NCBI RefSeq assembly: GCF_002285795.1
Contig: NZ_CP022961.1
Location: forward strand, 2,542,001 to 2,606,000
Direction: 5' to 3'
DNA from: Plantactinospora sp. KBS50
Lineage (GTDB): Bacteria; Actinomycetota; Actinomycetes; Mycobacteriales; Micromonosporaceae
Length of the DNA: 64,000 nt
Shown: one piece after another, positions 28,216 through 30,655 of the stretch
Position numbering within the stretch: the stretch's first letter is position 1
How the letters are laid out: each line of letters starts with the position of its first letter
Position numbers and translations under genes: made by a program
Notes under the pieces: generated by a model
Seen by the model: the letters and a program-made list of their open reading frames with translations, nothing else
Told to the model about the DNA's origin: nothing
Database searches by the model: none

Positions 28216-28477
28216 TCCGCCGCCTGTCCGCGTCCCGCATCCTCGTCGCGGCCGTGCTCGGGGTCTGAGGGTCGCCGGCATCGAGGCTTGATCCCGGCAT
28301 CCCTTGATCAACGCTGCCGCGGGGCCACCGACCGGCTTCGACCGTCTCCCGGCCGGCTCTGGATCATCCAGCCAGCGAGATCAACTCGTCTTCCGTGAAG
28401 TTGGGGTGTAACCGGCGCCCGAACACCCCAACTTCACGGAAGACGAGTTGACCTTCGGCGGGGCAGGGGAACGATGA
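28216..28477. other. intergenic region carrying the long palindrome, no gene seen
   Basis: The 308-bp gap between the SDR stop and the ArsR start holds the perfect palindrome at 28381-28451 and the operators at 28478-28520. A further short duplicated phrase, CTTGATC at 28288 and 28304, lies in the first part. I see no coding sequence in it. Confidence 0.5.
28381..28451. repeat. perfect 29-bp palindromic element
   Basis: Arms 28381-28409 and 28423-28451 are exact inverted repeats of 29 bp around a 13-nt loop. No U-tract follows. Its sequence is closely related to the imperfect palindrome at 2138-2218, so at least two copies exist in this window. It begins 166 bp after the SDR stop and ends 26 bp before the ArsR operators. 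It could end transcription, or be a miniature mobile or REP-like element. Confidence 0.85.
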
Positions 28478-28520
28478 TGCACAAGACTTGTGCAAAGAGG
28501 TTGTGCACAATTATTGTGCA
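28478..28520. promoter_or_regulatory. two identical operators in front of the ArsR/MFS operon
   Basis: TGCACAA-N3-TTGTGCA occurs at 28478-28494 and 28504-28520, with all half-sites exact and centres 26 bp apart. Between them TTGTGCACAA (28501-28510) is itself a perfect palindrome. The second site ends three bases before the ATG at 28524 and there is no ribosome site, so the mRNA may be leaderless and the repressor would sit on the start. Likely bound by the downstream ArsR-type protein. Confidence 0.8.
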
Positions 28521-28523
28521 TGC

Positions 28524-29270
28524 ATGGCAGAGACGGCACGAGAGCTTCGGCGGGTACGCCTGGACCACCGGCAGGTGCGGGTGCTCGCGCATCCGCTCCG
28601 GATGCGCCTGCTCGGCGAGCTGCGGTCGCGCGGGCCGGCCACCGCGACGGCGCTGGCCGATCGGCTGCACACCAACACCGGCGCGACCAGCTATCACCTG
28701 CGCCAGCTCGCGGAGGTCGGGCTGGTGCGGGAGGAGGCCGACCGGGGGACCGCCCGGCAGCGATGGTGGCGCGCGGCGCACGAGCTGACCAGTTGGGATC
28801 CGACCGATTTCGACGACGACCCGGACGCCCGGGCCGCCGTGGAGTGGGTCCAGCGCAACCAGGTGCGGTATTTCGCCGAGAGCGCGGAACGCTGGCTGGA
28901 GGCCGAGTCGGGCTTTCCGACCGCCTGGCGCGACGCGGCCGGAATGAGCGACATCCAGCTGATGCTCACCCCGGACCAGCTCGCGGCGCTGAAGACCGAG
29001 CTGTGGCAGACGCTGCTGCGCTACCGCACGGAACCGCCGGCCGCCCCGGCCCCGGCCCCTGGCGACCATCCCGCCGCGGACCCGGACCAGCACGCCGCAC
29101 CCGGCGGCGGCCCGGCCGTGGACCCGGAGCCGGCCGCCGCGCCCGGCGGCGGCCCGGCCGTGGACCCGGCCGTGGACCCGGACCCGGCCGCCGCGGCCGG
29201 TGGCGGGACGGCCGCGGCCCGACCGGTGCAGCTCTTCCTGGCCGGATACCCCGTCGTCGAGGGGGAGTGA
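28524..29270 (+). CDS. ArsR-family (winged helix-turn-helix) transcriptional regulator
   Basis: The product is 248 residues from ATG 28524. The N-terminal winged helix (VRVLAHPLRMRLLGELRSRGP, then TNTGATSYHLRQLAEVGLV) is of the HTH_20/ArsR type; no metal-binding ELCVCDL motif is present, so it is probably not a metal sensor. A helical middle domain (residues 95-175) probably mediates dimerisation or ligand binding. It is followed by an Ala/Pro/Gly/Asp repeat-rich linker (DPDQHAAPGGGPAVDPEPAAAPG type) and a short hydrophobic end. The in-frame upstream GTG 28488 lies inside the operators and is unlikely. It overlaps the transporter by one base (TGATG). Confidence 0.88.
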   Translation: MAETARELRRVRLDHRQVRVLAHPLRMRLLGELRSRGPATATALADRLHTNTGATSYHLRQLAEVGLVREEADRGTARQRWWRAAHELTSWDPTDFDDDPDARAAVEWVQRNQVRYFAESAERWLEAESGFPTAWRDAAGMSDIQLMLTPDQLAALKTELWQTLLRYRTEPPAAPAPAPGDHPAADPDQHAAPGGGPAVDPEPAAAPGGGPAVDPAVDPDPAAAAGGGTAAARPVQLFLAGYPVVEGE

Positions 29271-30655
29271 TGGGTGCGCTGACCGTCCGGCAGGCACGTC
29301 GGCGCTACCTGATCCTGCACGGGCTGCGTTGGTTGCCCAGCGGTCTGATCATCCCGGTGCTCGTCCTGCTGATGCAGGAACGCGGCCTGTCGCTGCCGCA
29401 GATCGGCCTGGTGACGGCCGCCCAGGGCCTGTTGGTGCTGGCCCTGGAACTGCCGACCGGAGGGCTCTCGGACGCCTTCGGCAGCAGGCCGGTGCTGGTG
29501 GTGGCCGCCGTACTCAACGTGCTGTCGCTGGCGCTGTTCGCGGTGGCCTCCTCGGTGCTCCTGTTCGTGCTGGTGTTCCTGCTCCAGGGCGTGTACCGGG
29601 CGCTGGACAGCGGCCCGCTGGACTCCTGGTACGTCAACGCGGCGCTCGCCGAGGACCCGGACGCCGACCTGGAACGCGGGCTCGGCGGCGCCGGTACCGT
29701 CACCGGGCTGGCCGTCGGGCTCGGCGCGCTGGCCAGCGGCGGCCTGGTCGCGCTCGGCCCGCTCGGGCCGGTCAGCGCGCTGACCCTGCCGGTGCTGGTG
29801 GCTGTGCTCGCGCAACTGGGCGCGCTCGTCGCACTGCTGGCGCTGCTCGTGGAGGTACGCCCGGCGGGCGGTAGGGGCGCGCTGCGCGCGTCGGCCCGCG
29901 AGGTGCCGAGGGCCATCGGCGGGGCGTTCGGGCTGCTGCGCCGCTCCCGGGTGCTGCTCGCGCTGGTCCTCGTGGAGGTGTTCTGGGGCTTCGGCATGGT
30001 CACCTTCGAGACGTTGCTGCCGGTCCGGCTCGCCGAGGTGGCCGGCGGCGCGACCCGGGCGGCGGCGCTGCTCGGCCCGGCCGGGTCGGCGGCCTGGATC
30101 GCCTCGGCAGCCGGTGCCGCGCTCGCCGTTCCGCTGGCCCGCCGGATCGGCGTCGCGCCGGCCGCCGCGCTGATGCGGGTACTCCAGGGCGCCACGGTGC
30201 TCGGCATGGGGCTGCTGGCCGGTCCGGCCGGGGTGCTGGCGGCCTACCTGGCCTGCTACCTGGTGCACGGGGCGAGCAATCCGGTGCACCAGGGACTGCT
30301 GCACCGCCAGGTGGATGGGCCGTACCGGACCAGCGTGATCTCGTTGAACTCGATGATGGCCCAGCCGGCGGCGGCGCTGGGTGGGGTGGCGCTCACCGCG
30401 CTGGCCGGTGCCACCAGCGTGAGCACGGCGATGCTGGCCGGCGCCGTGGTGCTGGCCGCCGCCGCGCCGCTGTACCTGCCGGCCTGGCGTGCCAGGCCGA
30501 CCGGACCGGACGGTACGCCGACGGCGCAGGCCGCAGCGGACGGTACGCGGGCAGCGCACGGTACGCCGACGGCGCCCACCGGTCCGGATGGTGCGCCGGT
30601 CGGCCCGGCCGGTGCGGCGGTCGCCGCCCCGGGCGCCGGCCGGCCCGGAGATTGA
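29270..30655 (+). CDS. MFS transporter, 12-helix type
   Basis: This 461-residue membrane protein has about 12 hydrophobic segments and motif A in the form GGLSDAFGSRPVLV between helices 2 and 3. It ends in a cytoplasmic tail of about 55 residues rich in Pro/Thr/Gly/Ala. The start overlaps the regulator stop, so the genes are translationally coupled: an ArsR/MFS self-regulated export cassette. Bacterial transporters of this layout often export drugs or sugars; the substrate is unknown. The C-terminal tail is encoded by repetitive DNA (ACGGTACGCCGACGGCG type, 30520-30580). Confidence 0.85.
   Translation: MGALTVRQARRRYLILHGLRWLPSGLIIPVLVLLMQERGLSLPQIGLVTAAQGLLVLALELPTGGLSDAFGSRPVLVVAAVLNVLSLALFAVASSVLLFVLVFLLQGVYRALDSGPLDSWYVNAALAEDPDADLERGLGGAGTVTGLAVGLGALASGGLVALGPLGPVSALTLPVLVAVLAQLGALVALLALLVEVRPAGGRGALRASAREVPRAIGGAFGLLRRSRVLLALVLVEVFWGFGMVTFETLLPVRLAEVAGGATRAAALLGPAGSAAWIASAAGAALAVPLARRIGVAPAAALMRVLQGATVLGMGLLAGPAGVLAAYLACYLVHGASNPVHQGLLHRQVDGPYRTSVISLNSMMAQPAAALGGVALTALAGATSVSTAMLAGAVVLAAAAPLYLPAWRARPTGPDGTPTAQAAADGTRAAHGTPTAPTGPDGAPVGPAGAAVAAPGAGRPGD

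Follow-up and report, generated by a model that had tools for sequence, protein, structure and literature searches.

A 43-bp array at positions 28478-28520 of the window (the whole 64,000-nt stretch of DNA that was analysed) consists of three overlapping 17-bp sites and lies directly before the gene for an ArsR-like regulator and an adjoining MFS transporter gene. As judged from sequence comparison, the array is very probably the operator of an autorepressor, placed over the -35, the -10 and the start of a leaderless regulator-transporter mRNA. The conservation of the array on the promoter, up to the first codon, in many soil actinobacteria strongly suggests that the regulator silences its own leaderless message and with it the transporter. 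The features are as follows.

28478..28494, + strand: putative operator site 1, a perfect site with TGCACAA and TTGTGCA around GAC (TGCACAAGACTTGTGCA); its right half holds the putative -35
28488..28493, + strand: putative -35 hexamer TTGTGC, with an 18-bp spacer to the -10
28491..28507, + strand: putative operator site 2, TGCAAAG and TTGTGCA around AGG, two mismatches; 4-bp overlap with site 1 and with site 3
28504..28520, + strand: putative operator site 3, a perfect site with TGCACAA and TTGTGCA around TTA (TGCACAATTATTGTGCA); holds the -10
28512..28517, + strand: putative -10 hexamer TATTGT, its first T 12 bp before the ATG
28524..28526, + strand: start codon and predicted leaderless transcription start (conserved -10-to-start spacing, no SD-like motif in orthologues)
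28524..29270, + strand: gene for the 248-aa regulator, a protein with an HTH_20/ArsR-like winged helix and a long C-terminal tail rich in Pro, Ala and Gly
29270..30655, + strand: MFS transporter gene, its ATG at 29270 overlapping the regulator stop (TGATG)

The heptamer TTGTGCA occurs in the window at 28488, 28501 and 28514, a 13-bp period, and TGCA is common to neighboring sites at the joints. An earlier note on this DNA described two identical perfect sites 26 bp apart. Both are present, at 28478-28494 and 28504-28520, and the second stops 3 bp before the ATG as claimed (28520 against 28524), but a third TTGTGCA at 28501-28507 had been missed and the pair is part of an array of three sites. 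Nor is the spacing only a few degrees off helical phase, as had been proposed. At 10.5 bp per turn, 26 bp correspond to 2.48 turns, 171 degrees out of phase, which places the two perfect sites on opposite sides of the helix, and each 13-bp step rotates by about 86 degrees. With this rotation and the TGCA overlap, full occupancy by dimers is not obvious.

A search of the window for the 17-bp site with up to 3 mismatches showed three matches against 0.43 expected, all three within the array. In the whole genome of 6,689,726 bases (6.69 Mb) the site is not found elsewhere at up to 1 mismatch, and the pattern TTGTGCA-N6-TTGTGCA does not occur outside the array. The genome-wide motif scan that the earlier note had proposed thus places the array only at the regulator-MFS locus. 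About 24 bp upstream of the array, at 28378-28454, there is a 77-bp palindromic element with 27-bp arms (AACTCGTCTTCCGTGAAGTTGGGGTGT). A second copy is situated near 2143-2215 of the window, about 24 copies are found in the genome, and the element is possibly REP/MITE-like or a terminator. Its position is similar to that of the outer array unit in Micromonospora-type loci. An Rfam search gave miRNA matches only; these fell on this long palindrome, far below gathering scores, and were taken as chance.

The regulator matches Pfam HTH_20 (PF12840) with 54.4 bits (cut-off 27), as do 42 of 42 aligned relatives, and also matches the ArsR HTH_5 family. Its score against the metalloregulator ArsR/SmtB model (NF033788), 42.2 bits, is under the cut-off of 55. 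An AlphaFold model has a mean pLDDT of 84, with values above 90 in the DNA-binding domain, and the top Foldseek matches in the PDB are ArsR-like proteins (4g6q, PH1932 and SmtB-type). The model is consistent with an ArsR-like winged helix carrying C-terminal helices. The regulator lacks cysteine altogether, and 145 of 147 orthologues are free of it over their first 190 residues; a thiolate metal site is therefore absent from the regulator, and thiolate metal sensing was rejected. The ligand is probably non-metal, while cysteine-free metal sites remain conceivable. GC-rich tandem repeats at 29073-29225 extend the regulator tail, giving 248 aa compared with about 199 aa in most relatives. The transporter displays an MFS_1 domain (82.5 bits, cut-off 33.4) and matches efflux families weakly, far below cut-off. 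It is a putative exporter. In their anatomy the two genes are adjacent and co-directional, behind a candidate operator on a common promoter.

The genus is represented by this genome only, so comparisons were made at the family level. The regulator protein was used to search 355 genomes of the family, and a homologue at E <= 1e-50 was found in 200. A locus search of genome contigs with the regulator as query yielded no more than 4 loci, probably because the tail is of low complexity. The array at up to 3 mismatches is present in 228 of the 355 genomes, compared with about 1 genome for a reversed-pattern control. Upstream regions were taken from relatives of at least 50% identity, 148 distinct loci including that of the window, and a promoter-start call was obtained in 147; the remaining locus carries TATTGTGGACGCATG by eye, with its start outside the scanned range. 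Since the array pattern had itself served to retrieve 28 of the loci, the 119 selected by protein were counted separately. All 119 show a TANNNT whose last base is 6 nt (94 loci) or 7 nt (25 loci) before the start codon, which is ATG in 113 and GTG in 6. TGCA units with up to 1 mismatch are found at -8, -21 and -34 from the -10 in 116 of the 119.

When all 147 loci are taken together, 146 have a TANNNT ending 6-7 nt upstream of the start, against 3.7% of shuffled upstream regions, a control that matters because the choice of start was itself aided by TANNNT. An SD-like tetramer 3-16 nt before the start was found in none of the 147. Of the 147 loci, 146 have an MFS gene directly after the regulator, in most cases with the stop and start codons overlapping, and the orthologues keep the array, which favors the view in the earlier note that ArsR and MFS form one unit with the operators. 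An rmlD-like gene is situated upstream in 98 of the 147 loci. Many Micromonospora-type loci have four sites in the array. In five Actinoplanes-type loci a divergent gene stands on the far side of the array from the regulator. By eye, the N-terminus of this gene resembles a GNAT acetyltransferase, and in these loci the array may serve two promoters.

In the window the array spans the -35, the -10 and the sequence that follows, stopping 3 bp short of the ATG. As a match the -35 is weak; its first three positions are, among the 147 orthologues, T in 125, T in 132 and G in 123. A generic sigma-70 scan made no promoter call at the array, which is no surprise where a TANNNT -10 is paired with a weak -35. 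This layout bears on whether the regulator could instead bind as an activator or a dual switch. Activation and repression cannot be told apart from the layout alone, and with several overlapping sites occupancy might be graded. However, a protein bound over these elements normally excludes polymerase, and in the window species only the left half of site 1 is upstream of the -35, so that activation or dual control is improbable.

Leaderless genes with a TANNNT about 12 bp upstream are typical of the Actinobacteria (PMC3160421). In Streptomyces coelicolor leaderless transcripts make up 21% of primary starts, many in transcriptional regulation (PMC4895711), and for Actinoplanes SE50/110 a TAnnnT -10 is given for 98% of mapped starts, with 1179 leaderless starts (PMC7682106). 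By the definition in PMC3160421 (TANNNT about 12 bp before the start, no SD), the mRNA of the regulator-MFS pair is predicted to be leaderless. The sequence AAAGAGG at 28494-28500 is 23 nt upstream of the ATG. The earlier note had read the ATG as lacking a ribosome site, the mRNA as leaderless and the start as covered by the operators. The first reading holds and agrees with the orthologues, and the comparisons lend support to the predicted leaderless start and to its coverage.

A leadered mRNA would require an upstream promoter, with the array acting on a transcript already started, or translation from GTG 28503 or TTG 28488. Both codons are in frame upstream of the ATG, AAAGAGG precedes the GTG by 2 nt, and some in-frame ATG or GTG is found upstream in 118 of 147 orthologues. 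A longer start in this one species is formally possible. But the array-to-start distance is 6 or 7 nt among orthologues, so that the array keeps no fixed frame with the coding sequence, and the TANNNT at leaderless spacing and the missing SD-like motif also argue against a leader. A leadered message is thus unlikely. The array as coding sequence with an upstream start was rejected, as the spacing to the start codon differs by one base between orthologues.

One genome, G082, is the single exception to the adjacency of the two genes. Its regulator at 1.99 Mb has an array and no adjoining MFS gene, and at 5.42 Mb a second array immediately precedes an MFS gene that stands alone and shares 68% identity with that of the window; there TATTGT ends 8 nt before the ATG. 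Both arrays have an adjacent start codon. Each split gene keeps an array, and thus the array accompanies the regulator and the transporter separately. Although a single case, it ties regulator, array and transporter together more strongly than any other non-experimental evidence.

The spacers of the array show a further pattern. In 111 loci of at least 60% identity, with changes placed on the protein tree, the spacers of the first and third units co-vary about the center of the second unit. Compensatory changes on one and the same branch number 36 at the dyad register, and no register shifted by 1-6 bases has more than 7. In Micromonospora-type loci the co-varying spacers make up a DNA dyad of 43 bp. 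Four loci show an extended 43-bp palindrome, perfect or near-perfect, with spacers co-varying between species. The window species is without the outermost unit, and the dyad is therefore incomplete in the window itself. Instead of selection, template-switch correction of quasi-palindromes is an alternative source of the co-variation.

The symmetry also bears on a different identity for the array, either as DnaA boxes or iterons, or as an RNA hairpin or terminator that belongs to the rmlD-like gene upstream. The sequence TTGTGCACA resembles a DnaA box with one change. Many Micromonospora-type loci could form a stem of about 21 bp shortly after rmlD (-32 to -38 kcal/mol in four examples), and full spacer symmetry is more common beside rmlD (48/78) than where no rmlD was found (3/20), an association that may reflect phylogeny or a second role. 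However, spacer mismatches of the G-U type (13) are not favored over those of the A-C type (12), the balance that symmetric DNA, but not a paired RNA stem, would produce, and the extended hairpin is missing in the window species and in Actinoplanes-type loci. The hairpin or terminator reading is weakened by this. In addition, the array stays with regulator and MFS when these are split, and its last unit is tied to the -10 and the start codon. Taken together, DnaA boxes, iterons or a hairpin make a highly improbable account of the array.

Among 60 more distant HTH_20 homologues, 41 gave a TANNNT-start call and 19 did not. Many of the 41 have tandem inverted repeats with other half-sites (TTTGCAAAG, TCTAAAG and CTTGTAC, classes that were assigned by eye), and the TTTGCAAAG group shows 14-bp steps. 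Altered half-sites are seen upstream of seven paralogues, several with leaderless-type promoters. At residues 50-52, in the recognition helix, members of the TGTGCA clade all have T-N-[TS], and those of the TTTGCA clade mostly have [QE]-S-[TS]. Such parallel differences are what self-recognition predicts, and the correlation can be explained by shared ancestry alone; a protein-DNA recognition code among HTH_20 paralogues is possible. The ten best-scoring other HTH_20 genes of the window's genome are without the array, and only 2 of the 10 gave a TANNNT-start call. Thus the layout is not universal among HTH_20 genes.

A joint reading of these patterns is tentative and rather doubtful. The operator would be a higher-order DNA dyad of three sites stepped by 13 bp; assembly of the regulator on the DNA as a symmetric multi-dimer would make the seemingly free spacers co-evolve in mirror symmetry around the -35. 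The locus would then be one case of a wider HTH_20 design in which the bases of a leaderless promoter double as tandem operators, and half-sites and recognition-helix residues diversify together into a readable protein-DNA code.

For the favored autorepressor operator we infer the following mechanism. Dimers of the regulator would bind the 17-bp inverted repeats through the half-site TGCACAA/TTGTGCA, the half-sites lying about one helical turn apart and successive sites following every 13 bp with TGCA in common. Regulator on the array would cover both promoter hexamers and all but the last 3 bp ahead of the ATG, and would thereby exclude RNA polymerase. A ligand, probably non-metal, would release the regulator, and transcription could then begin at the A of the ATG or a neighboring base to give a leaderless regulator-MFS mRNA. 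Repressor and transporter, the latter acting in efflux, would rise together until the ligand is removed.

The array offers a candidate operator, open to testing, for a large clade of regulators in actinobacteria that produce antibiotics, and links it to one transporter family. The 147 promoters and the paralogues with other half-sites are material for working out how HTH_20 proteins recognize DNA. Promoter, operator and start codon lie on the same bases under joint constraint, and the question is raised of why the spacers co-vary symmetrically. A literature search on the operator sequence and on ArsR, leaderless mRNAs and operators in actinobacteria found no published description, subscription papers being mostly outside its reach.

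The predicted winged-helix fold with C-terminal helices is like that of Kfla_6221 (PDB 4g6q), PH1932 (1uly/2cwe) and Phr (2p4w). Unlike metal-sensing ArsR/SmtB proteins, the regulator has no cysteine and scores below the metalloregulator cut-off. In lambda cI and tetR, repressor sites also overlap the promoter; tetR controls an MFS exporter, and tetR and tetA are divergent. The regulator and MFS genes of the window instead form one co-directional unit, and lambda cI and tetR have unrelated DNA-binding folds and no 13-bp tandem array. Lambda cI and Tn1721 tetR are leaderless repressor genes with mRNA from the AUG, according to the citations in PMC3017554. A close parallel in layout is the acuR-acuI-dddL operon of Rhodobacter sphaeroides, proven to be a leaderless autorepressed operon with its operator on the promoter (PMC3017554). 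In both systems, in the window by prediction, a repressor gene comes first in an operon that it shares with the effector genes, the promoter is overlapped by an inverted-repeat operator, and the mRNA is leaderless. AcuR, however, is of the TetR family with one operator, TAATAGAC-N6-GTCTATTA, whereas the window has an HTH_20/ArsR-like regulator and a tandem array; the acuR operon encodes enzymes and is proven by experiment, whereas that of the window encodes a transporter and is known from sequence. Thus the logic of leaderless autorepressed operons is known, and what is new here is the architecture of the array, its breadth and the co-varying spacers.
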